From Amycolatopsis sp. FBCC-B4732 (lineage in GTDB: Bacteria; Actinomycetota; Actinomycetes; Mycobacteriales; Pseudonocardiaceae), in assembly GCF_023008405.1 (NCBI RefSeq), contig NZ_CP095376.1, forward strand, positions 706,001 to 770,000: a stretch of DNA of 64,000 bases, written 5' to 3'. The notes beneath the pieces were generated by a model. That model did no database searches, was not told the DNA's origin, and worked only from the letters and a program-made list of their open reading frames with translations. Below, one piece after another: positions 2,746 to 28,258 of this stretch (within the stretch, counting starts at the first letter, position 1; every line of letters starts with the position of its first letter). Made by a program: the position numbers and the translations under genes.

Positions 2746-5700
2746 CACCGAAACCGCGGTGGTCACGTCGGCCGCCGCGACCGACGAGCCGATCGCGATC
2801 GTCGCGATGGGCTGCCGCTTCCCCGGCGGCGTCCGCTCGCCGGAAGACCTGTGGCGCCTGGTCACCGACGGCGTCGACGCCCTGACGGCGTTCCCGGCCG
2901 ACCGCGGCTGGGACCTGAATTCCTTCGGTGACGAGGAATTCGCCGAGGTCGGCGGGTTCGTGGCCGGCGCGGCGGAGTTCGACGCGGGCTTCTTCGGCAT
3001 CTCGCCGCGCGAGGCGCTGGCGATGGACCCGCAGCAGCGCGTGCTGCTGGAAACGGCGTGGGAGGTGTTCGAGCGCGCGGGCGTCGACCCGGCTTCGCTG
3101 CGCGGCAGCGCGACCGGCGTGTTCGTCGGCGCCAGCAGCTCCGGCTACGGCTCGAACCTCGAACAGGGACCGTCCGGTTCGGAGGGTTACCTGCTCACCG
3201 GCGAAGCCCCCAGCGTGATGTCCGGACGGCTGTCGTACACGTTCGGGCTGGAAGGCCCGGCCGTCACGGTGGACACGGCGTGCTCGTCCGCGCTGGTCGC
3301 GATGCACCTGGCGAGCCAGGCGCTGCGGCAGGGCGAGTGCTCGCTCGCGCTGGCCGGCGGCGTGGCGATCATGGCCAAGCCGATGGCGTTCCTGGAGTTC
3401 GCCCGCCAGCGCGGCCTGGCCGCGGACGGCCGCTGCAAGCCCTTCGCCGACGCGGCCGACGGCACCGGCTGGGGTGAGGGAGTCGGCCTGATCCTGCTGG
3501 AGCGCCTTTCGGACGCCGAGCGCAACGGCCACCAGATCCTCGCGGTCGTCCGCGGTTCGGCGGTCAACCAGGACGGCGCGTCCAACGGCCTGAGCGCCCC
3601 GAACGGCCCCTCCCAGCAGCGGGTCATCCGCGCCGCGCTCGCCAACGCCGGACTGTCCACTTCGGACGTCGACGCGGTCGAGGCCCACGGCACGGGCACC
3701 CGCCTCGGCGACCCGATCGAGGCCCAGGCCCTCCTGGCCACTTACGGCCAAGACCGCACGGAACCCCTCTGGCTCGGTTCGGTCAAGTCCAACCTCGGCC
3801 ACACCCAGGCGGCGGCCGGTATGGCGGGCGTCATCAAGACGGTCGAGGCCCTGCGCCACGGCGTCCTGCCGCGAACCCTGCACGTGGAAACCCCTTCGTC
3901 CCAGGTGGACTGGACGACCGGGTCCGTCGAGCTCCTCACCGAACCCCGCGAGTGGCCGGAGCGCGATCGTCCCCGCCGGGCGGCGGTCTCGGCGTTCGGC
4001 GTGAGCGGCACGAACGTCCACACCATCCTCGAACAGGCCCCCGCCGGTCAGCCGCAGCCCGAGCCGGAACCCACGGACGCGTTGCTGCCCCAGGTGTTCT
4101 CCGCCCACGACGCGGCCGCCCTGGACACCCTGATCAGCCACCTCCCGGACGCGAACCCGGTCGACCTGGGCTTCTCCCTGGCCACCACCCGAGCCCGCCT
4201 CGAGCACCGCGCCGTGCGCTTGGGCGAGGACATCATCACCGGCACGGCCGACCCGGACGCCCTGCTGGCGGTGCTGTTCACCGGCCAGGGCGCCCAGCGA
4301 GCCGGCATGGGCCAGGGCCTCTACGCCCGCTTCCCGGCCTACGCCGCCGCCTTCGACGCGGTCCTCGCCCACTTCGACCCGTCCCTTCCCGCCGCCTTCG
4401 CCGACCCCGCGCTCCTCGACCGCACCGAGTTCACCCAGCCGGCCCTGTTCGCCGTCGAAGTCGCCCTCTACCGCCTGGTCGAGTCCCTCGGCATCCGCCC
4501 GGACTTCGTAGCGGGTCACTCGATCGGCGAAATCTCGGCAGCGCACGTTGCCGGTGTCCTGTCCCTCGAGGACGCCTGCCGCCTGGTCTCGGCGCGCGCC
4601 TCGCTGATGCAGGCTCTCCCGCCGGGCGGGGCGATGGTCTCGATCGCGGCCCCCGAGTCCGAGATCACTCTGACCGAGGGCGTCTCCATCGCCGCGGTCA
4701 ACACCCCCGAGTCGGTGGTCATCTCCGGCGAGGAAGCCGCGGTCCTGGACATCGCCGCGGAATTCGCCGCGCGGGGCGTCAAGACCAAGCGCCTCACGGT
4801 GAGTCACGCGTTCCACTCGCCGTTGATGGACCCGATGCTGGAGGAGTTCCGCGCGGTCGCCGAGTCCCTCACGTACCACCCGGCGGCGATACCGGTGATC
4901 TCGAATGTGAGCGGTGCTCTCGCCGAGCCGTTCACGGCCGACTACTGGGTCCGTCATGTCCGCGAGGCGGTCCGTTTCGCCGATGGCGTCGCCACCCTCA
5001 AGTCCGAAGGTGCCCGAATCTTCCTGGAGCTGGGGCCCGACGGGGTGCTCAGCGCGATGGTCGACGGAACCGCGATCAGTGCTCTGCGACGAGAGCGGGA
5101 TGACGAGAGAGCACTGCTCACAGCGTTGAGCACTGTTCACGTCCACGGTGTCGACGTCGACTGGGCCGCGTTCTTCCCCGGCGGCCGCCGCATCGACCTC
5201 CCGACCTACCCGTTCCAGCGCGAGCGCTACTGGCCGCGCGCCGGAGCGGCCCGGGGCGACCTCGGCGCCGTCGGCGTGGGCGCGCTCGAACACCCGCTGC
5301 TCGGCGCCGCCGTCGACCTCGCCGGCGACGAAGGCACCGTCCTCAGTGGACGCCTCTCGCTGGAAACCCACCCGTGGCTGGCCGGGCACGCGCTGTCCGG
5401 GACCGTCCTGGTTCCCGGCACCGCCCTGCTCGAACTCGTGGTCCAGGCCGGCGACCAGGTCGGCTGCGACGTCGTCGACGAGCTGACCTTCGCCGCGCCC
5501 CTGGTGCTGCCCGCCCGCGGCGCGGTCACCGTCCAGGTCTCGGCCGGTCCAGCGGACTCCGCCGGGCGCCGCCCGATCGCCGTCCACTCCCGCCACGCCG
5601 ACGCCGACTGGACCCAGCACGCCACCGGCAGCGTCAGCCAAGCTGCACTTTCACGTGAAAGTGCCGTTGAATGGCCGCCTGCGGGGGCCGAGCCGGTCGA

Positions 5701-13216: not shown

Positions 13217-16200
13217 ATGGCCACGCCTGAGAAGGTGCTCGACGCGCTGCGCGCCTCCGTCAAGGAGGCCGAGCGGCTGCGGCGGCAGAACCGGCAGCTC
13301 GTCGAGGCCGCGACCGAGCCGGTCGCCATCGTCGCGATGGCCTGCCGGTTCCCCGGTGGCGTGCGCTCGCCCGAGGGGCTGTGGGACCTGGTGGCCCGCG
13401 GTGGTGACGCCGTCACGGCGTTCCCCGCCAACCGCGGCTGGGACACCGCGACGCTGTTCGACGAAGGCCGCCCGGGCACGACGTACGCGCGAGAAGGCGC
13501 TTTCCTGCACGACGCCGACCTCTTCGACGCCGGCTTCTTCGGGATCTCGCCGCGCGAAGCCCTCGCCATGGACCCCCAGCAGCGGCTCCTGCTCGAGACG
13601 TCCTGGGAGGCCTTCGAACGCGCCGGCATCGACCCGGCTTCAGTGCGGGGCAGCCGGACCGGCGTCTTCGTCGGCTCCAACGGCCAGGACTACCTCACCC
13701 TGCTGCGCTCGTCGGCCGAGGACGTCGAGGGCTACCTCGGCACCGGCAACGCGGCGAGCGTCGTTTCCGGGCGGCTGTCGTACCTGTTCGGGTTCGAAGG
13801 CACGTCGCTGACCGTCGACACGGCGTGTTCGTCGTCGCTGGTCGCCCTGCACCTCGCCGTGCAGGCGCTGCGGCAGGGCGAGTGCGACCTGGCCCTCGCC
13901 GGCGGCGCGACGGTGATGGCCACCCCCGGCACGTTCGTCGAGTTCAGCAAGCAGCGCGGGCTCGCCCCGGACGGCCGCGTCAAGGCGTTCGCCGAGGCCG
14001 CCGACGGCACCGGCTGGGGCGAAGGCGTCGGAATGCTCCTGGTGGAGCGCCTTTCCGACGCACAGCGCCACGGCCACGAAGTCCTGGCCCTGGTCCGGGG
14101 ATCGGCGGTCAACTCCGACGGCGCGTCCAACGGCCTGACCGCGCCGAACGGCCCGTCCCAGCAACGCGTGATCCGCGCGGCCCTCGACAGCGCCCGCTTG
14201 TCCACTTCGGACATCGACGTCGTCGAGGCGCACGGTACGGGAACCACCCTCGGCGACCCGATCGAAGCGCAGGCACTCCTGGCCACCTACGGCCAGGACC
14301 GTTCGACGCCGCTGTGGCTCGGTTCGGTGAAGTCGAACATCGGGCACACCCAGGCGGCGGCGGGTGTCGCCGGGATCATCAAGATGGTCATGGCGATGCG
14401 GCACGGTGTCCTGCCGCGGACGTTGCACGTCGACGCGCCATCGTCGCATGTGGACTGGTCGGCGGGCGCGGTCGAGCTCCTGACCGAGTCCCGCGAATGG
14501 CCTTCGGACGACCGGCCTCGGCGAGCCGCGGTGTCGTCGTTCGGGGTCAGCGGCACCAACGCGCACACGATCCTGGAAGCCGTTCCGCCCGCCGAGCCGG
14601 TGCCCGCCGGGACACCGATGGGCACCCTCACGCCGTTCGTGCTGTCGGCGAAGACCCCGGAAGCCCTTCAGGCGCAGATTTCCCAGCTCGACGCGGTGAC
14701 GGCCGACCCCGTTGACATCGCCCGCACCCTGGCCACCACCCGGACGGCGTTCGAGCACCGCGCCGTCGTCCTCGAACCGAACCTGATCACCGGCGAGGTC
14801 CGCGAGGATTCCCGGCTGGCAGTGCTGTTCACCGGCCAAGGCGCGCAACGGGCCGGCATGGGCCAAGACCTCTACGCCCGCTTCCCGGTCTACGCCGAAG
14901 CTTTCGACGCCGTCCTCGCCCACTTCGACCCCGCCCTCCGCGCCGCCCTCACCGACGCCGAACTCCTCAACCGCACCGAGTTCACCCAGCCCGCGCTGTT
15001 CGCCATCGAGGTCGCGCTCTTCCGCTTGGTCGAGTCGTTCGGCGTCCGCCCGGACTTCGTGGCGGGGCACTCGATCGGCGAGATTTCCGCCGCGCACGTT
15101 GCCGGTGTCCTGTCCCTCGAGGACGCGTGCCGCCTGGTCGCCGCGCGGGCGTCGCTGATGCAGGCCCTGCCCACTGGTGGCGCGATGGTCTCGATCGCCG
15201 CCCCCGAGTCCGAGATCGTGCTGACCGAGGGCGTCTCGATCGCCGCGGTGAACGGTCCCGAGTCGGTCGTCATCTCCGGCGACGAGGCCGCCGTGCTGGC
15301 GATCGCCGCGCAGTTCCCCAAGACCAAGCGCCTCACCGTCAGTCACGCGTTCCACTCGCCGCTGATGGACCCGATGCTCGAGGACTTCCGCGCGGTCGCC
15401 GAGACGTTGAACTACCGCTCTGCGACGATCCCGGTGATCTCGAATGTGAGCGGTGCTCTCGCCGACCCGTTCACGGCCGACTACTGGGTCCGCCACGTCC
15501 GCGAGGCCGTCCGGTTCGCCGATGGAATCGCGACCCTCGAAGCCGAAGGCGTCCACACGTTCCTGGAGCTGGGACCGGACGGAGTCCTCAGCGCGATGGT
15601 GCCGGGCACGGCCTTCCCGGCCCTGCGACGTGACCGCGACGAGGAACGGACCCTGCTCGCCGCCCTCGCGGGGGTGTGGGTCAACGGCGGCGCCGTCGAC
15701 TGGGCCGCCTACCTGCCCACCGGCCCGCGGATCGACCTGCCCACCTACCCCTTCCAGCGGGAACGCTTCTGGCCCACGCCCGCACCGCAGGCCGATGTCG
15801 ACGTCCCCGCGCTCGCCGCCGAACTCGGCCTGCCCGAACACACCCTGCGCCCCGCCATCGCGGCCGTGCGGCGACGCCGTGAAGAGGCCACGGCCGCGGA
15901 CGCGTGGCGCTACCGGGTCACCTGGACACCGCTGACCGCCACCGACGTCCCGGCACCGCAGGGCGACTGCCTCGTCATCGACCCGTCCCCGCAGCTGGAA
16001 GCCGTCCTCGAGAACTGGAACGGCCGGGTCATCCGCCTCGACGGCCCTATCGGTGACATCGATCCGGTCGCCGTGTTCAGCGGTGCCGGGCTCGAGCGAA
16101 CCGTCGACCTCCTGCGCGAACTCGGTGCCACCGGGATCGACGCCCCGCTGTGGTGCGTCACCACCGGAGCCGTCCGCGCCACCGGAACCGACCCCGCGCC

Positions 16201-19200
16201 GGACCCCGATCAGGCCGCGATCTGGGGTCTCGGCCGCGCGGCCGCACTCGAACTGCCGGAGCGCTGGGGCGGCCTGATCGATCTTCCATCCACTGTGGAC
16301 GAAGACGTCGCGGCACGGTTCCTGGCACTGCTCAGCGGCGACGAGGACCAGGTCGCCGTGCGCGCGGAGGGCAGCTTCGGGCGGCGGCTGGAGCCCGCCG
16401 AGCCGGTCGCCGCTCCCGCGTGGACCCCGCGTGGCACGGTCCTCGTCACCGGCGGGACCGGCGCGCTGGGCGCCCAGGTCGCCCGCCGTCTCGCCCGGGA
16501 CGGTGCCGACCACCTGGTGCTGGTCTCCCGCCGCGGCGCCGACGCACCCGGCGCGGCCGAGCTGGCCGACGAGCTGGGCGTGCGGGTGACGTTCGCCGCC
16601 GGCGACGTCGCCGACCGGGAGTTCCTGGCCGAGCTGATCGAGCGCGTCAGTCCCGGGCTCACCGCCGTCGTGCACACCGCGGGCGTCGTGCGGTCCGCGC
16701 TGCTGTCCGAAGTGGACAGCGCCGCGGTCGCCGAGCAGTGGGCGGCCAAAGTGACCGGCGCCCGCCACCTCGACGAACTCCTCGCCGACGCCGACCTCGA
16801 CGCGTTCGTCCTGTTCTCCTCGATCGCCGGGGTGTGGGGCAGCGGGCAGCAGGGGCTCTACGGCGCCGCAAACGCTTTCCTCGACGCGCTCGCCGAAGGC
16901 CGCCGCGCCCGCGGGCTGGCCGCCACGGCCGTCGCGTGGGGTCCGTGGGCCGACGGCGGGATGGCCGCCGACAACGACGCCGAGGACTACCTCCTCCGCC
17001 GTGGTCTGCGCGCACTGGAGCCGGGCGTGGCCGTGACGGCGCTCCTGCGGGCCGCGGGCGGCGATACGAACGTCACGTTCGCCGACGTCGACTGGCCCCG
17101 GTTCGCCGCCGCGTTCACCTCCCGGCGGCCGAGCCCGCTGCTGGCCGGGATCCCGGACGCCGTCCCGGCGCCGGAAACCCCCGCGACCGGTGGTCTCGTC
17201 GGCCGGCTGCGCGGCCTGACCCCGGCGGTCGCCGACGAGGTGCTGCTGCAGCTCGTCCGTGACCAGGCCGCCGCGGTGCTCGGGCACGCGAGCGCGGCCG
17301 CCGTCGCGCCGGACCGCGCGTTCCAGGAGATCGGCTTCGACTCGCTGACCGCGATCGAGCTGCGGGACGCCCTGCACGCGGAGACCGGGCTCGCCCTGCC
17401 CGCGACGCTCGTCTACGACTGGCCGACGCCGGCCGCGCTCGCCGGTCACCTGCGGGCCGGTGTCCTCGGCGACGCCGTCACCGAAACCACCACGAAAACG
17501 GCCGCGGCGGCCGACGAGCCGATCGCCATCGTCGCGATGAGCTGCCGGTACGCGGGCGGGATCGCGTCGCCGGAAGACCTGTGGCGCCTGGTGTCCGGCG
17601 GCGCGGACGCGGTCTCCGGTTTCCCCGCCGACCGCGGCTGGGACCTCGAAAACCTCTACGACGCCGACCCCTCGCGACTCGGCTCGGTCAGCGTCACCGA
17701 AGGCGCTTTCCTCGACGCGGCAGGCGGTTTCGACGCCGGGTTCTTCGGCATCTCGCCGCGCGAGGCACTCGCGATGGACCCGCAGCAGCGGCTCCTGCTG
17801 GAGCTGACGTGGGAGGCGTTCGAGCGCGCGGGCATCGACCCGGCTTCGGTCCGGGGGAGCCGGACCGGCGTGTTCGCCGGCACCAACAGCCACGACTACA
17901 CGACGCTGCTCCTCGGCTCGGCCGACACCCTCGAAGGCCACATCGCGACCGGCAACGCGGCGAGCGTCGCATCGGGCCGGCTCTCTTACACCTTCGGCTT
18001 GGAGGGCCCGGCCGTCTCGGTCGACACGGCGTGCTCGTCTTCGCTGGTCGCGCTGCACCTGGCCGTCCAGTCGCTGCGGCTCGGCGAATGCTCGATGGCG
18101 CTGGCGGGCGGCGTCACGGTGATGGCGACGCCGGGCACGTTCGTGGAGTTCAGCCGCCAGCGCGGCCTCGCCACCGACGGTCGTTGCAAGGCGTTCGCCG
18201 AGGCCGCGGACGGCACGGCGTGGGGCGAAGGCGCGGGCCTGGTCCTGCTCGAACGGCTCTCGGACGCCGAGCGCAACGGACACCGCGTGCTGGCCGTGGT
18301 CCGCGGCTCGGCGGTCAACCAGGACGGCGCGTCCAACGGCCTCACCGCGCCGAACGGCCCGGCCCAGCAGCGCGTCATCCGCGCGGCACTGGCCGACGCC
18401 GGTCTGTCCACTTCGGACGTCGACGTGGTCGAAGCCCACGGCACCGGAACCACTTTGGGCGACCCGATCGAAGCCCAGGCGCTCCTGGCCACCTACGGCC
18501 AAGACCGTGAGACGCCGTTGTGGCTCGGCTCGGTGAAGTCCAACATCGGCCACACCCAGGCCGCCGCGGGCGTCGCCGGCGTGATCAAGATGGTGATGGC
18601 GATGCGGCACGGCGTGCTGCCGCGGACGCTGCACGTCGACGCGCCCTCTTCGCACGTGGACTGGACGGCGGGTGCCGTCGAGCTGCTGACCGAGTCGCGC
18701 GAGTGGACGGCCGACCGGCCGCTGCGGGCCGCGGTCTCGTCGTTCGGCATGAGCGGCACCAACGCGCACACCGTACTGGAAGCCGTTTCCCAGCAGGAGC
18801 TTTCGCCTGCCGCTGAGTCAGGCCCGGTTCCGTGGGTGCTCTCGGCTCGTTCGGCCGATGCCCTGCGCGGCCAGGCGCAGGCTCTGCTCGGGGTGGCCGG
18901 TACTCCGGCGGACATCGGCTTCTCCCTGGTCGCCACCCGGGCTTCCCTGCCGCACCGCGCGGTCGTGACCGGCGACTTCGCCGAGGGCCTGACTGCGCTG
19001 GCCGAGGGTACCCCGGCGGCGAACGTCGTCACCGGCGTGGCCGGGGCGCCGGGCAAGGTCGCCCTGGTCTTCCCCGGTCAGGGCTCCCAGTGGGCCGGAA
19101 TGGCACTCGAACTCGCGGAGTCTTCGCCGGTCTTCGCCGCCCGCCTCGACGAGTGCGCGGCTGCGCTGGACTCCTTTGTGGACTGGCAGCTCCGTGACGT

Positions 19201-22200
19201 GCTCGCCGACGCGGAGGCGCTGAGCCGGGTCGACGTCGTGCAGCCCGCGTTGTTCGCGGTGATGGTTTCGCTGGCGGAGTTGTGGCGCTCGTTCGGCGTG
19301 GTCCCGGACGCCGTCGTCGGCCACTCCCAGGGTGAGATCGCCGCCGCGGTGGTGTCGGGTGCGCTGTCCCTTGAGGACGGTGCCCGCGTGGTTGCTCTGC
19401 GGAGCAAGGCGATCCTCGCGCTGGCCGGCCGTGGCGGGATGGTCTCGGTGGCCGCCTCCCGCGAAGCCGTCGAAGAACGGCTGACCGACGGTCTCTCGAT
19501 CGCCGCCGTCAACGGCCCGGCCGCGGTCGTGGTCTCCGGCGAGCCGCGGTCGCTCGACGAGCTGATCGCCTCCTGCGAAGCCGACGGCATCCGCGCCAAG
19601 CGGGTCCCAGTGGACTACGCGTCGCACTCGGCGCAGGTCGAGCAGCTGCGTGACGAACTCCTCGACGTGCTGGCCCCGATCGCTCCTCGCGTGGGCGAGA
19701 TCGCCTTCATCTCAACGGTGACGGGGGAGTGGAACGAAAGCGTCGACGCCGAGTACTGGTACACCAACCTGCGCAGCACCGTCCGCCTGGACACCGCGGT
19801 CGAGCGGTTGAAGAGCGAGGGCTTCGGCACGTTCATCGAGGCCTCGCCGCACCCGGTCCTGACGATGGCGCTGGGCGAAGACGTTGTGGCACTGGGAAGT
19901 CTGCGCCGCGACGACGGGGAATTGACCCGCTTCCACACCGCGCTGGCCGAGGCGCACGTCCACGGGGTCACCGTCGACTGGACCCCGGCCTTCCGGAACG
20001 CCCGGGTCGTCGACCTCCCGACGTACGCCTTCCAGCGCAAGCAGTACTGGCCCCGCCCGGCCACCCGCACCGGCGACGCCGCCGGGCTCGGCCTCGGCCC
20101 CGTCGAGCACCCCCTGCTCGGCGCCGCGGTCACCCTCGCCGAGGAGGATCGGCTCGTCCTCACCGGACGGCTCTCCCGGCAGACGCACCCCTGGCTCGCC
20201 GACCACGAGGTCCTCGGCACCGCGCTGCTGCCCGGCACGGCGTTCGCCGAACTCGCCATCCACGCGGGCGACCACACCGGCTGCGGCACCGTCGAAGAAC
20301 TCACCCTCGGGGCGCCGCTGGCCGTGCCCACCACCGGCGGCGTCCAGCTCCAGCTCGTCGTCGAGGCACCGGCCGAGGACGGCCGCCGCGCCCTGACCAT
20401 CAGCTCCCGCCCGGACCGACCCGGCGCCCGCTGGACGCGGCACGCCCAAGGCGTCCTGGCCCTCGGCGCCCCGGAAGCCGAGCCCCTGCCCGACTGGCCG
20501 CCCGCCGGCGCGGAGGCGCTCGACGTCGAGGCCCATTACACCGCACTCGCCAACGCCGGTTACCACTACGGACCCGCCTTCCGCGGCCTGCGCGCCGCGT
20601 GGCGCCGCGACGGAGACGTCTTCGCCGAGGTGGAGCTGCCGGGAACCGACGCGTTCGCGGTGCACCCGGCTCTGCTCGACGCCGCCCTGCACGCACTCGG
20701 CCTCGGCGGGTTCTTCCCCGACGACGGCCAGGCCCGCCTCCCGTTCGCGTTCACCGACGTGAGCCTGTTCGCCACCGGGGCGAGCGCCCTGCGCGTGCGG
20801 CTGAGCCAGGCGGGTCCGAACGCGGTGTCGGTCGTGGCCAGCGACCCGGCCGGCCACCCGGTGGCAAGCATCGGCTCGCTGGCGTTCCAGACCGCGTCCA
20901 CAGTGGACGACGTGCCGGACGCCCTCTTCCGCACCGAGTGGACACCGGTCACCACGACCGGCGAAGCGCCCGGATTCACGTGGCTGACCGGATCCTTGAC
21001 GGACCTCGCCGAGGTGCCGGCCGCGGTGGTCCTGCCGGTCACCGGCACCGACCCGCACGCGGTCGCGGCGCACGTCCTCGCGACCGCGCAGGAGTGGCTG
21101 GCCGACGACCGGTTCGCGGCGGCCCGGCTGGTGGTGCTCACCACCGGCGCGCTCGCTGCCCTGCCCGGCGACCCGGTGCCCGCGTTGGCGCAGTCCCCGG
21201 CGTGGGGCCTGATCCGTTCGGCTCAGTCGGAAAACCCCGACCGCTTCGTGCTCCTCGACCTCGACGACCGTTCCGACGCGGCCGCCGCCATCGGCACCGC
21301 GCTGGCGTCCGGCGAACCGCAGTCGGCCGCCCGCGCGGGGACAGTGCTCGTCCCGCGCCTGGCTCGCCCGGCCACGGAATTGACCCTGCCCGGCGCTGGG
21401 CAGGCATGCCCGGAACTGGCCTTGCCCGGCGCCTGGCGCGTCGGCACGACCGGCACCGGCACCCTCGACGGCCTCACCACCCTCCCGGCGCCGGAAGCCG
21501 AAGCCGCACTCGGGCCCGACGAGATCCGCGTCGAGGTCCGCGCGGCCGGCCTGAACTTCCGCGACGTCCTGATCACCCTCGGCATGTATCCGGGCCAGGC
21601 CCTGATGGGCGGCGAGGCCGCCGGCACCGTCCTCGAAACGGGCGAACAGGTCCGCGGCCTGACCGCCGGCGACCGCGTGACCGGCCTGTTCACCGGCGCA
21701 CTCGGTCCCGTCGCGGTCACCGACCACCGCCTGGTCACCCCGATGCCGGACGGCTGGAGCTTCGCCGAAGCCGCATCGATCCCGGTCGCGTTCGCCACCG
21801 CCTACTACGGCCTGTTCGACCTCGGCGGCCTCGAAGCGGGCCAGTCCGTACTCGTGCACGCGGCCGCCGGCGGCGTCGGCATGGCGGCCGTCCAGCTCGC
21901 CCGCCACCACGGCGCCGAGGTCTTCGCGACCGCGAGCACCGGAAAGCACGACGTGCTGACGCAAATGGGTCTCGACACCATCCACATCGGAGACTCCCGG
22001 TCACTGTCCTTTGAGGATCACTTCCGCAAGGCGACCAACGGGCACGGCGTCGACGTCGTGCTCGACGCCCTCGCCGGCGAGTTCGTCGACGCCTCCCTCC
22101 GGCTGCTGCCCCGCGGCGGCCGCTTCGTCGAGATGGGCAAGGCCGACCTCCGCGACGCCGCCGAAGTCGCGCGGGTCCACGAAGGCGTCCTCTACCGCGC

Positions 22201-25200
22201 GTTCGACCTGATCGAAGCCGGACCCGAACGCCTGCAGGAGATCCTGCGTGAACTGGCCGGGCTGTTCGAAGCCGGCGGACTCACCCCGCTGCCGCGGCGC
22301 ACCTGGGACCTGCGGCAGGTGCCGGAGGCGTTCCGGTTCATCAGCCAGGCCCGGCACGTCGGCAAGAACGTCGTCACGCTGCCGCGCCCGCTCGACCCGG
22401 CCGGCACCGTGCTCGTCACCGGCGGCACCGGCACGCTCGGCGCCCGCGTCGCGCGCCACCTCGTGACCGCGCACGGCGTCCGGCGGCTGCTGCTGGTCAG
22501 CCGCCGCGGCCCGGACGCGCCGGGCGCGACTGAACTCGCGAACGACCTGACCGCGCTGGGCGCCGAGGTGACGATCGCCGCGTGCGACGCCGCCGATCGC
22601 GACGCACTGGCCGAGCTGCTGGCCGGCCGCACACTGACCGGCGTCGTGCACACGGCGGGCGTCCTCGCCGACGGCCTGCTCACCGGCCTCGACCCGGCCC
22701 GCCTCGACGAGGTGCTGCGGCCCAAGGTCGACGCCGCCGTCAACCTGCACGAGCTCACGCGGAACATGGACCTGGCGCTGTTCGTGCTCTTCTCGGCTGC
22801 GGCCGGCGTGTTCGGCACGGCCGGGCAGGGCAACTACGCGGCCGCCAACACCGCGCTCGACGCACTGGCCGCGCACCGGCGTGCGCTCGGCCTGCCGGGA
22901 GTCTCCCTGGCCTGGGGCCTGTGGGCGGAGGCCAGCGGCATGACCGGCCACCTCGGCGCCACCGACCTGGCGCGGATGTCGAGGGGCGGCATGACCGGGC
23001 TGTCCGACGCCGACGGGCTGGCCCTGTTCGCCGCGGCCATCGCCCGCGGCGAGACCTTGGCGATCCCGGCCCGGCTCGACCTCTCGGCGTCGAACGGTCC
23101 GGTGCCGCCGCTGCTGCGCGGGCTCGTCCGCGCCACCCGCCGCGCCGCCACCACGACCGCGTCGAGCGACGGCGGACTGACCTCCCGGCTGCAGACGCTG
23201 CCCGCCGCCGAGCGTGACCGGCGGCTGCTGGAGCTGGTCCGCGACCACGTCGCCGCGGTGCTCGGCCACGACACCGCCGACGAGATCGAGCCCGGCCGCT
23301 CCTTCGCCGAACTCGGCTTCGACTCGCTGACCGCCGTCGAGCTGCGCAACCGGCTCGGCGCCGCGACCGGCCTGCGCCTGCCGGCGACGCTGGTGTTCGA
23401 CCACCCGGCCCCGGCGGCGCTCGTGGCCCTGCTGCGGACCGAGCTCTTCGGTGCCGCCGCGGAACAGCCGACGCAGGTCGTGACCGCGGCATCCGGCGAC
23501 GACCCGGTCGTCATCGTGGCGATGAGCTGCCGCTACCCGGGTTCGGTCGCGTCGCCGGAGGACCTGTGGTCCCTTGTGGACGGTGGCGTCGACGCGATCA
23601 CGCCGTTCCCCGCCGACCGCGGCTGGGACCTCGATGGTCTGTACCACCCGGAACCCGGCACGCCCGGCCGCATCTACACGCGCAACGGCGGTTTCGTCCG
23701 CGACGCCGACCGCTTCGACCCGGAGCTGTTCGAGATCGCGCCGCGCGAGGCCCTGACCATGGACCCGCAGCAGCGCCTGCTGCTCGAAGCGACGTGGGAG
23801 GCCTTCGAGCGCGCCGGCATCGACCCGACGTCGGCCCGGGGCAGCCGGACCGGCGTGTTCGTCGGCGCGGCGACGTCCGGCTACGGCACGGGCGCGGCGA
23901 CCGACGGCCTCGAAGGGCACCTGATGACCGGCGGGACGTCGTCGGTGGCGTCGGGCCGACTGTCCTATGTGTTCGGTTTGGAAGGTCCCTCGCTGACGGT
24001 GGACACGGCGTGTTCGTCGTCGCTGGTGGCGTTGCACCTGGCAGTGCAGGCCCTGCGGCGCGGCGAATGCGACCTGGCGCTCGCCGGCGGCGTGACGGTG
24101 ATGCCGACCCCCGGCGTCCTGCTCGCGTTCAGCCAGCAGCGCGGTCTCGCCGAAGACGGCCGGATCAAGGCGTTCGCCGAGGGCGCGGACGGCACCAGCA
24201 TGGCCGAAGGCATCGGCATGCTGCTGGTGGAGCGCCTCTCGGACGCGCGGCGCAACGGTCACGAGGTGTTGGCCGTGGTGCGCGGTTCGGCGGTGAATTC
24301 GGACGGCGCGTCGAACGGCTTGACGGCGCCGAACGGCCCGTCGCAGCAACGGGTCATCCGCGCCGCGCTGGCCGACGCAGGCTTGGCTCCGTCCGAAGTG
24401 GACGCGGTGGAGGCGCACGGCACCGGCACCAAACTCGGTGACCCGATCGAAGCGCAGGCGCTGCTGGCGACCTACGGTCAGGACCGGTCGACGCCGCTGC
24501 TGCTGGGTTCGGTGAAGTCGAACCTGGGACACACCCAGGCCGCCGCCGGGGTCGCGGGCGTCATCAAAATGGTGATGGCGATGCGCCATGGTTTGCTGCC
24601 CCGGACATTGCACGTCGACACGCCGTCGTCGCATGTGGACTGGGCTTCGGGTGCGGTGGAGCTGCTGACCGAGCCGCGCGAGTGGCCGTCGGACCGTCCC
24701 CGGCGGGCGGGTGTTTCGTCGTTCGGCATCTCCGGCACCAACGCGCACACGATCCTGGAGCAGGCACCGGACGCCGTCACCGAGGATCGCGCGCCGGTTT
24801 CCGGCCCGGTGCCGTGGGTGTTGTCGGCGAAGAGCCCGGCGGCACTGCGGGCACAGGCCGCCCGCCTGCACGGATTCCTCGGCGACGAGGTCCCCGCCGA
24901 CGTCGCACTGAGCCTGGCGACCACCCGCGCCGACCTCGGCCACCGCGCGGCGGTCATCGGCGAGACCGGCCCCGAACTCCTGGCTGGACTGGCCGCGATC
25001 GCCGACGCCGACCCGGGCGCCCTGACCGGCACCGGCGCCCCCGGCCGCCTGGCGGTGCTGTTCACCGGCCAGGGCGCACAGCGGGCCGGAATGGGCCGCG
25101 AGCTGTACGCCCGGTTCCCGGTGTTCGCGGCGGCGTTCGACGAGGCCTGCGCCCTGCTCGACACCGACGTGCCGCTGGCCGAGGTGATCGAGACGGATCT

Positions 25201-28200
25201 GCTCGACCGGACCGGCTACGCGCAGCCCGCGATCTTCGCCCTCGAGGTCGCGTTGTTCCGGCTCGTCGAGTCGTGGGGAGTCCGGCCCGACTTCGTGGCG
25301 GGACACTCGATCGGCGAGCTGGCCGCCGCGCATGTCGCTGGGGTGCTCTCACTGCCCGACGCGTGCAAGCTGGTCACCGCCCGCGCAACCCTGATGCAGT
25401 CCCTCCCCGAGGGCGGCGCGATGGTGGCAATCGCCGCTCCGGAGGCCGAGGTCCGGGCCGCACTGGCCGATGACCGGGCCACGCTGGTCGGCGAGCGGGC
25501 CGAGCTGGCAGACGAGGCCACGCTGACCGGCGGCCGGGCTGAGCTGGCTGGGGATCGCGCCGAGCTGACCAGTGGCTGGGCTGAGCCGGCTGCCGACCGG
25601 GCTGAGCCTGCCGGTGACCGGGCCGAGAAGGTCGGCGCCGGGGCCGCACTGCCCGGCGATCGAGCTGAGCAGGTCGGCAACCGGGCCGCGCTGGTCGGCG
25701 ACCGTGTCGGCATCGCCGCGGTCAACGGTCCTCGCAGCACCGTCATCTCCGGCGACGAAACCGCCGTGCTCGCCATTGCCGCCGAGTTCGCCGCCCGCGG
25801 GGTCAAGACCAAGCGGCTCCGCGTCAGCCACGCCTTCCACTCGCCGCTCATGGACCCCATGCTCGCCGACTTCCGCGCGGTCGCCGAAACCCTCACGTAC
25901 CACCCGGCGCAGATACCGGTGATCTCGAATGTGAGCGGTGCTCTCGCCGAGCCGTACACCGCGGAGTACTGGGTGCGCCACGTGCGCGAAGCCGTCCGGT
26001 TCGCCGACGCCGTGCACACGCTCACCGAGCAAAGCGCGAGCACGTTCCTCGAACTCGGCCCCGACGGCGTGCTGTCCGCGATGGCTGCCGAGAGCACTGA
26101 TCTCCCTTCGGTCCCGACGCTCCGCGACGGCGAGAACGAGCCCCGCGCGCTGGTCACGGCCTTCGCCCGCCTCCGCGTCGCCGGCTTCCCGCTCGACACC
26201 GCCGCCCTGCTCGAAGGGGCCCGAAGGACCGCGCTGCCGACCTACGCCTTCCAACGGTCGCGGTTCTGGCTCGAACCCGCGGCAAAGACCGAAAGCGACA
26301 GCGGCTTCTGGGCCGCAGTCGACGCGGGCGACCTCGGACTCGACGACCAGGCCATGGCAGCCCTCGACCGCTGGCGCTCATCGTCCACAGTGGACGCCTG
26401 GCGCTACCGCGTCACCTGGCGACCGCTCGCCGAGACCACGGGACGCCTGACCGGTCGCTGGCTCATCCTCGGCACGAACGAGCTCGCCGAGCAGGTCGCC
26501 CAGGCACTGAAAGCGCACGGCGCCGAGCCGATCGTCGAGTCCGGCCGCCGCGAAAGGGCCGCGTTGACGACCCTGCTCCGCGACCACGCCGACGTCGAAG
26601 GAGTCGTGTCCCTGCTGGCGATCGGAGAAGACGCGGAGACCGGGCTCGCCGCCAACCTGGCGCTCACGCAGGCCTTCGCCGACTCCGGCATCCCCGCCCG
26701 CCTGTGGTGCCTCACCCAGGGCGCGGCCAAGGACGTCACCCAGCCCGGCCAGGCCACGACCTGGGGCTTCGGCCGGATCGCGGCCCTCGAGCTGCCGTCC
26801 GGCTGGGGCGGCCTCGCCGACCTGCCCGAGACGTTCGACGCGGCGGCCGGAGCCCGGCTCGCGGCCGTGCTCGCCGACGGCACCGAGGACGAGGTTGCCC
26901 TCCGACCGGACGGTGTCTTCGCCCGCCGGCTCGCGCCCGCCCCGCCCGGGGAGACGCGGGATTGGCGCCCGCGCGGCACGGTGCTGATCACCGGCGGTAC
27001 CGGTGCGCTCGGCGCCGCGGTCGCCCGTGAACTCGCCGCCACCGGAGCCGAACACCTCGTGCTCACCGGCCGTCGCGGCGCCCAGGCACCGGGCGCCGCC
27101 GAGCTGGCCTCGGAGCTGTCCGCCCTCGGCGTCCGCGTCACCCTCGCCACCTGCGACGCGGCCGACCGGGACGCCCTCGAGAAGGTCATCGCGGCCATCC
27201 CGGCCGACCTGCCGCTGACCGCGGTCGTGCACGCCGCCGGCACCGGCCAGAACGGCCCGCTCACCGCGATCACGCCCGGGGAGGTGACCGCGGTGCTGGC
27301 CGGCAAGGTGGCCGGCGCCCGGCACCTCGACGAGCTGACCCGCGACCGCGACCTCGACGCGTTCGTCCTGTTCTCCTCGATCTCCGGCGTGTGGGGCAGC
27401 GGTGAGCAGGCGGTTTACGGTGCGGCGAACGCGTTCCTCGACGCGCTCGCCGAAGAACGCCGCGGCCGCGGGCTCACCGCGACCGCGATCGCGTGGGGCC
27501 CGTGGGCCGAATCCGGGATGGCGGCCGACGACGGCGCGGTGCGGATGCTGCGCGGACGCGGCCTGCCGCCGATGGAACCCGCGCTCGGCGTCACGGCCTT
27601 CCGCCGGGCGCTCGCGACGGACGACACCGCCGTCGTGGTCGCCGACGTCGACTGGGCCAAGTTCGCGCCGGTCTTCACCGCGGCCCGGCCCCGGCCGGTC
27701 CTGGCCGACCTCCCGGCGGTGCGGGCCGTGCTCACCGAGGCCGAGCCCGAGGAGACCGGGTTCGCTTCGATGTCCATTCAGGACCGGCCGAAGGCGCTGC
27801 TCACCCTGGTCCTCGACCAGGTCGCGGGCGTCCTCGGGCACTCGGCGCAGGCGATCGGGCCGGAACGCGCTTTCAAGGAGCTCGGTTTCGACTCGCTGAT
27901 GGCGGTCGAGCTGCGCAACCGGCTCGCCACCGGAACCGGGCTGAGCCTGCCGGCGTCGCTGGCCTTCGACCACCCGACGGCGGCCGACCTGGCCGAGGAG
28001 CTGGACCGGCGGCTGGGCGGCGGCGAGGCGGGCGGCGTCCGGCTCCTCGACGAGCTCGACCGGCTGGAAGCCGCTTTCGAAACCGTCACCGAGTCCGAAT
28101 TGGACGGCATTTCCGCGCGCGGCGAGGTCACCGCGCGCCTGAAGGGTTTCCTCGCGCGCTGGAGCGACCTGTCCGGCGAGACCGGCGGCACCGACCTCGG

Positions 28201-28258
28201 CGGCGCCAGCGACGACGAGCTCTTCGACTTCATCGACAACACCTTCCGGACCTCGTGA
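13217..28258 (+). CDS. Gene B: type I modular PKS, modules W4-W5-W6
   Basis: Complete 5013-residue PKS. The N-terminus (residues 1-32, [20 protein letters not shown]...) is a charged coiled-coil docking helix, a different class from those of genes C-E; the KS starts at about residue 33. W4 KS-AT-KR-ACP: KS Cys204, AT Ser619, KR Tyr1215, ACP Ser1376. W5 KS-AT-DH-ER-KR-ACP: KS Cys1606, AT Ser2037, DH His2330 and Asp2488, KR Tyr3207, ACP Ser3370. W6 KS-AT-KR-ACP: KS Cys3599, AT Ser4031, KR Tyr4734, ACP Ser4893. The C-terminal tail (from about residue 4935) has the [11 protein letters not shown]...DDELFDFID pattern of a DEBS-like docking domain. Odd feature: an 83-residue tandem-repeat insertion in the W6 AT (residues 4083-4165). 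The next gene starts 17 nt after the stop. Confidence 0.98.
13313..17465 (+). other. Module W4: KS-AT(malonyl)-KR(A1)-ACP
   Basis: KS about 13313-14575 with Cys 13826, His 14231 and His 14345. AT about 14815-15775: Ser 15071 in GHSIGE and HAFH at 15344-15355, malonyl. KR about 15795-17150: intact [16 protein letters not shown] with Tyr 16859, Trp present, no LDD, Gln at the A1/A2 position, so A1. ACP Ser 17342 in [11 protein letters not shown]. Predicted product: beta-hydroxy thioester. Confidence 0.93.
17513..23450 (+). other. Module W5: KS-AT(methylmalonyl)-DH-ER-KR-ACP, fully reducing
   Basis: KS about 17513-18785 with Cys 18032, His 18437 and His 18551. AT about 19055-20055: Ser 19325 in GHSQGE and YASH at 19616-19627, methylmalonyl. 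DH about 20100-20895: His 20204 ([10 protein letters not shown]) and Asp 20678. ER about 21450-22385 with HAAAGGVG from 21857. KR about 22400-23100: GGTGTLG, LAD in place of LDD (B-like), Tyr 22835. The residue 13 before that Tyr, normally the catalytic Ser, is Ala (22796), with a Ser just before it. ACP Ser 23324. Predicted product: saturated alpha-methyl unit. Confidence 0.92.
23500..28010 (+). other. Module W6: KS-AT(malonyl, repeat-bearing)-KR(A1)-ACP
   Basis: KS about 23500-24760 with Cys 24011, His 24416 and His 24530; note [17 protein letters not shown] where other modules read [17 protein letters not shown] about 25050-26275: Ser 25307 in GHSIGE and HAFH at 25829-25840, malonyl, interrupted by a 249-bp tandem repeat at 25463-25711. 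KR about 26300-27740: intact [16 protein letters not shown] with Tyr 27416, A1. ACP Ser 27893 in [11 protein letters not shown]. Predicted product: beta-hydroxy thioester, if the AT still folds. Confidence 0.92.
25463..25711 (+). repeat. In-frame 21-bp minisatellite, 12 units, inside the W6 acyltransferase
   Basis: Twelve consecutive degenerate units, eleven of 21 bp and one of 18 bp (the third, 25505-25522), each encoding a heptad close to L-x-G-D-R-A-E. Examples are LADDRAT (25463-25483), [42 protein letters not shown] and LVGDRVG (25691-25711). The frame is kept. The other malonyl ATs here pass directly from the APEAEV/APESEI segment to SIAAVNGP over a few residues, so this is an insertion of about 80 residues in the small ferredoxin-like subdomain, between the GHSIGE Ser and HAFH. 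The flanking LADDR and [10 protein letters not shown] suggest expansion from a local seed. It is rich in charged and small residues and has no membrane character. Confidence 0.95.

Follow-up and report, generated by a model that had tools for sequence, protein, structure and literature searches.

The question raised by this locus is where a tandem repeat of twelve units inside a catalytic AT domain came from, and whether the domain that carries it still works. The repeat lies in the last of three AT domains of a modular type I PKS open reading frame of 5013 amino acids (positions 13217..28258, + strand) within the window, by which we mean the whole stretch of 64,000 nucleotides analysed here, part of a genome assembled as a single contig of 10.19 Mb. 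The reading we favor, with a probability of about 0.77, is a slippage-born in-frame expansion from one unit to twelve that the AT carries as a tolerated loop. The alternatives weighed below are not all exclusive, as a functional loop would also arise by expansion, and the likelihoods attached to them need not sum to one.

The KS, KS-AT linker and AT of the module that bears the repeat occupy approximately 23498..26275 (+ strand; Pfam, tblastn and blastn against paralogs), with a KR and an ACP downstream, and the Pfam matches to KS, AT, KR and ACP come from 22001-28258. The AT matches Pfam Acyl_transf_1 (PF00698) in two stretches, with 180.1 bits against a cut-off of 32.7. Its nucleophile motif GHSIGE (25301..25318, + strand) contains the G, H, S and G that are invariant in an alignment of 45 ATs, and all 21 invariant columns of that alignment, which includes the window AT, are kept in it. 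The residues of GQG, GHSxG and HxxHS, together with an Arg and an Asn, have roles in the AT, and on this basis the domain is a type I PKS AT. Its downstream motif is HAFHS (25829..25843, + strand), which we take to be a malonyl-type signature. Some exact 40-mers recur in the AT or KS domains of separate modules, 26 of them touching 24400-26400, and among the matches listed they connect 4888-4931, 25912-25955 and 30499 of the window, and 24428 with 33574. We take them as a minor sign that these domains underwent gene conversion or share a recent origin.

The array itself spans 25454..25702 (+ strand, 249 bp) and divides into twelve units, of which eleven are 21 bp long and one is 18 bp, with the consensus CGGGCCGAGCTGGCCGGCGAC, translated RAELAGD. 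The short unit is the fourth (25517..25534, + strand), which encodes ATLTGG and has no Arg codon. All twelve units are in the frame of the open reading frame, each length is a multiple of three, and there are no stop codons, an absence that is uninformative by itself (chance P = 0.485). Tandem Repeats Finder reports 25453-25704 with a period of 21, 12.1 copies, 63% matches and a score of 147, while the best of 100 codon shuffles of the open reading frame scored 86 (mean 54.7), placing this head-to-tail repeat beyond chance. An initial annotation, made from the sequence alone, had described an in-frame 21-bp minisatellite of twelve units, one of 18 bp, inside the AT, and repeat finding and unit parsing agree; its coordinates of 25463..25711 were about 9 bp off. 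The predicted RNA structure of the array is not notable (z = -1.27).

The effect on the length of the domain is large. There are 14 AT motifs in the window, and the distance from the nucleophile Ser to HAFHS is 176 residues in the repeat-bearing AT compared with 93, 93, 93, 93, 97, 99 and 102 residues in the seven other HAFHS ATs, with an equivalent distance of 99 residues in each of the six YASHS ATs, so that the longer gap claimed at the outset is real. In blastn comparisons with seven paralogous ATs of the window, similarity ends at 25448-25453 in six cases and at 25425 in one, and restarts at 25689-25712; positions 25703..25732 (+ strand) encode the last part of the loop and strand beta-2, the point at which the sequence again resembles other ATs.

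To find the equivalent module elsewhere, the DNA of the linker and N-terminal AT was compared with 80 genomes of the genus, its own included (E ≤ 1e-100). This recovered the orthologous module from nine further genomes, all of other species, and all nine have about one unit at the site of the array, taken as the stretch between "(D)V" and "AAVNGP", with no intermediate unit numbers. Seven of the orthologs are equal in length and two are one residue shorter, giving a net gain of 76 residues (228 bp) against the seven and 77 against the two, close to the figure of about 80 first proposed. The single units are RAELPGD (G005 and G003), RAELPGE (G058), RAELPAE (G051), RAALTGD (G093 and G074) and RAALDDD (G086), with RAALPDG (G057) and LAVLPAD (G076) in the two shorter orthologs. 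The unit shared by G005 and G003, CGGGCCGAGCTGCCGGGCGAC, matches the consensus of the array in 19 of its 21 bases. The closeness of the single unit of the nearest orthologs to the consensus points to a local seed for the expansion, as the initial annotation had suspected from the flanking sequence. The unit in G086 opens with CCGGGCCG, and CCGGGTCG occurs 21 bp downstream, an imperfect direct repeat that could seed a first duplication.

Whether one unit became twelve or twelve became one depends on the phylogeny. A maximum-likelihood tree built from 1021 codons, and left unrooted, splits G093, G074, G076, G057 and G086 from the window with G051, G058, G003 and G005 at an ultrafast bootstrap of 100. 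Support for the exact position of the window is weak, as the grouping of the four nearest orthologs without the window has an ultrafast bootstrap of 49, and a smaller tree with five orthologs puts the window beside G074 and G086 (support 0.876). If the long internal branch holds the root, genomes without the insert fall on either side of it, and the lineage of the window would have gained the array. An ancestral array that shrank to a single unit in the other lineages would be compatible with a root on the window branch, which an unrooted tree and the weakly supported place of the window allow, but it requires that contraction to about one unit took place on either side of the best supported split, in four and in five genomes, with no intermediate left, and we consider it highly unlikely. 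We infer gain rather than loss, with slippage as the mechanism. Synonymous divergence of the units from their consensus is 0.29, while that between the window and G003 is 0.35 over both branches, so the expansion is likely to have occurred early on the lineage of the window, a rough estimate from few sites.

The units have diverged considerably since. The mean difference between them is 33%, distributed as 22%, 36% and 40% over codon positions 1, 2 and 3, and 27 of the 49 changes from the consensus are C>T or G>A. Third-position GC is 0.81 in the array compared with 0.91 in the open reading frame, a value as low being found in 1.5% of stretches of the same length in that frame. The non-synonymous share of changes in the array is 0.683, compared with 0.729 in a neutral simulation (P = 0.25), which is a weak test as the mutation spectrum was taken from the array itself. 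Neighboring units are no more alike than distant ones (0.357 and 0.323). At a spacing of two the units are a little more similar (P = 0.010 by permutation, for one lag of the six tried), so that some duplication steps may have copied 42-bp dimers. The array appears to drift like unconstrained, near-neutral sequence and is best read as an old, frozen expansion that is no longer homogenizing. The description of the tract as a variable repeat is not supported for the present, as one genome was found with the array and its units are too diverged, with no likeness between nearest neighbors, to point to continuing slippage.

An array known from a single genome, with no second strain found to carry it, invites the suspicion of an assembly or sequencing artefact. 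A mean difference of 33% between units makes an error of repeat collapse or repeat expansion unlikely, and the 249 bp are in frame without a stop, leaving an artefact most improbable.

To determine how unusual the expansion is, we surveyed 139 AT motifs, which gave 129 distinct entries including the window AT; three motifs were excluded as the downstream motif was absent, and their loops were ordinary by eye. The distance from GHS to the next motif is 57-69 residues in 125 of the 129 entries and 138 in the window AT. For two entries (L117 and L025) the pattern overshoots, and the loops are ordinary by eye, giving 127 ordinary loops among the 128 other distinct ATs and one, L144, that is out of frame; L144 aside, the window AT has the sole long loop of the survey. 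In L144, from a contig of Streptomyces exfoliatus, the frame of the AT appears broken downstream of the GHS motif, possibly by a frameshift in a draft contig.

The insert, together with short flanks, was also searched against 80 genomes of the genus (E ≤ 0.001), 390 of the family and 394 of the class (both E ≤ 1e-4), sets that overlap, and the best 59, 12 and 12 candidates per genome respectively were scored, which limits other cases without excluding them. Matches were obtained in 8 of 80, 5 of 390 and 1 of 394 genomes, the match in the class being the window itself, and no second expanded AT was present among the best-scored candidates. The remaining matches are short ortholog stretches or sequence other than PKS ATs (L035, L036, L038-L040 and L084-L086). 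In the protein database, the 5013-residue protein (P0001) was seen in one contig only, and the insert had no homologue other than the window's own protein among 1261 scored candidates of PKS length, the best by shared words, while a shorter query of 1680 amino acids found none at E ≤ 0.001 among 7315 candidates. Within its own genome only short pieces were found besides the array (best E 0.002 among the 40 matches listed at E ≤ 1), and a pattern combining two unit types had no matches in the window. Among open-licence PMC papers the search found none that describes an AT expanded by a tandem repeat. One of the matches, L086 (G317:C5:39179-39430), comes from another genus of the family; it lies outside PKS genes, has a heptad-like repeat with a 21-bp period, and aligns with the insert over 84 residues at 49% identity (E 5.2e-6).

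Repeats with the same period are also found elsewhere in the genus. A dispersed 21-bp minisatellite family, whose unit is approximately GTCGGCTCGCGTACCTGGACG, is represented in 29 of the 80 genomes at E ≤ 0.001, and 23 of these 29 have 8-14 matches each, with at most nine candidates scored per genome. Its loci include L035, L038-L040 and L054-L083 (for example G088:C1:1541508-1541791), and by a crude coding-bias check 24 of 30 have no coding-like open reading frame over the array, counting L079, at which no array was called. At L040 arrays lie side by side in opposite orientations. No report of this family was found in the literature search; in passages of a survey of prokaryotic satellites, dispersed non-coding families are described as rare, a statement that concerns repeats of more than 30 nt (PMC6749651).

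The existence of this family, with its equal period and its spread through the genus, would make it conceivable that the AT captured its array from it. Set against this, the genome of the window contains no match to the family at E ≤ 0.001, the likeness of the units is 12 of 21 bases at the best rotation, which is at chance level (P = 0.43), and the single unit of the orthologs accounts for the array unaided. On the homology of its units the array is not a member of the family, and we regard capture as scarcely credible.

The remaining question is what 76 added residues do to the domain. So large an addition to a catalytic domain could cause misfolding, and the initial annotation had allowed that the AT was inactivated, in which case the module would be bypassed or supplied in trans. 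For a domain that had long been dead, a raised dN/dS would be expected. With the insert left out, the dN/dS of the AT is 0.146 between the window and G003, 0.130 with G005 and 0.148 with G058, while the insert-free pairs G005-G003 and G058-G003 give 0.143 and 0.158; against the more distant G074 the window gives 0.193 and G003 0.289. Thus the raised dN/dS that was looked for in the window AT relative to its orthologs was not seen, and as the ratio is as low as in the insert-free pairs the AT reads as functional. This holds although the array is much decayed, and hence not recent; the catalytic motifs are present, and the frame and the downstream open reading frames are open. With intact motifs and a low ratio the AT looks functional, and its inactivation is very unlikely. 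The low ratio also agrees with a putative transfer of the acyl group from malonyl-CoA to the ACP by this domain. In the segment after the AT the window-G003 ratio is slightly higher (0.247, compared with 0.170 for G005-G003 and 0.225 for G058-G003), a weak difference.

We compared an AlphaFold2 model of the window AT, made with an alignment of 45 ATs, with a control lacking the insert, the AT of ortholog G005 (with 44 ATs). The window model has a mean pLDDT of 86.5, with 373 of 490 residues at 90 or above, and the control has a pLDDT of 93.0. Helix alpha-1 covers residues 213-218 in the control, followed by beta-2 at 225-232, and 213-240 in the window model, a lengthening of 22 residues in which the added part has a pLDDT of about 74-81. 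Residues 242-297 of the insert, about 56, are below 50. After a shift of 76 residues the other elements match the control within a residue or two, except that the window model has a short C-terminal helix of low confidence, and the 50 fold matches listed are solved AT and KS-AT structures. From these predictions we infer that the AT fold is kept, with alpha-1 extended and the rest of the insert mostly disordered. A tolerated surface loop, one of the outcomes first envisaged, is what the low dN/dS of the AT, its predicted fold and the low confidence over most of the insert support.

The loop could instead have a selected function, in which a longer helix and an acidic flexible loop alter AT-ACP docking, AT-KS packing or the choice of module partner. 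The small subdomain, to which the loop belongs, also has the RXR strand that one report proposes for carrier recognition (PMC4207774). The 83-residue array has a net charge of -7, all 12 units have Ala at heptad position 2 (P = 0.08), and of the 40 residues immediately preceding the insert four occur in the window alone, a weak signal (P = 0.056) of possible local co-adaptation. That Ala is the sole invariant position of seven, however, the amino acid changes of the array fit the neutral simulation, and most of the insert has a pLDDT below 50, making a selected function unlikely, if the least far-fetched of these alternatives. A more specific form, in which the longer alpha-1 and a flexible acidic arm are a new structural element, born by expansion of the seed unit in one species lineage, that modulates AT-ACP docking or carrier choice, and so a natural example of repeat expansion remodelling an assembly-line catalytic domain, is a speculative prospect to which we give slightly less credence still.

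Under the preferred reading of slippage-born expansion into a tolerated loop, the seed would be the 21-bp stretch that codes for the short alpha-1/beta-2 loop of the small, ferredoxin-like subdomain of the AT, and the start was probably a short imperfect direct repeat (CCGGGCCG / CCGGGTCG) of the kind still seen in G086. Repeated in-frame tandem duplication on the lineage of the strain would then have taken the locus from 1 unit to 12, further units being added by replication slippage or unequal recombination between copies; as a counterpoint, no relative has an intermediate unit number and the steps are not seen directly. The added residues would extend alpha-1 and, past the helix, make a loop that is mostly disordered and tolerated by the AT, and the units would later have drifted near-neutrally, with the reading frame kept because the rest of the synthase lies downstream. 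The locus is an unusual and clean case, most likely a tolerated one, of a seed unit expanding within a catalytic domain, and its place, its size and the nine relatives with one unit make it useful. About one unit in nine orthologs and twelve here make a before and after pair, showing an insertion of 76 residues into a catalytic domain and a dN/dS that stays low in the remainder of the domain. The alpha-1/beta-2 loop may also tolerate large insertions in general, which would be useful for tagging or engineering PKS modules.

The AT itself has known counterparts. By sequence and structure comparison the salinomycin AT (6iyo) and the GfsA chimera (9iyw) share the AT family and fold of the window AT, and in two alignments both have an ordinary short alpha-1/beta-2 loop, unlike the window AT. 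The known repetitive elements of assembly-line PKS genes are GRINS, described in excerpts of one study as about 1 kb long, often more than 90% identical to another PKS region and strongly skewed (PMC10394414). GRINS resemble the array in being repetitive DNA in PKS coding sequence, and differ from its short 21-bp head-to-tail units. In blastn rows of the module against the rest of the window the identity is 66.6-79.3%, and by this comparison within the window the array is not a GRINS. The closer likeness is to the in-frame coding minisatellites and amino-acid repeat satellites of prokaryotes. In the relevant portions of the satellite survey many prokaryotic satellites lie inside genes, most of those with long units have units that are a multiple of three, and, as here, the repeat is in a protein gene with the frame kept (PMC6749651). 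The expansion is best read as ordinary in its mechanism and unusual in its place and size: from the same portions, those satellites are found mainly in repeat-bearing proteins such as surface-layer proteins (PMC6749651), while the array described here lies in a conserved catalytic fold that had one native unit as its start.
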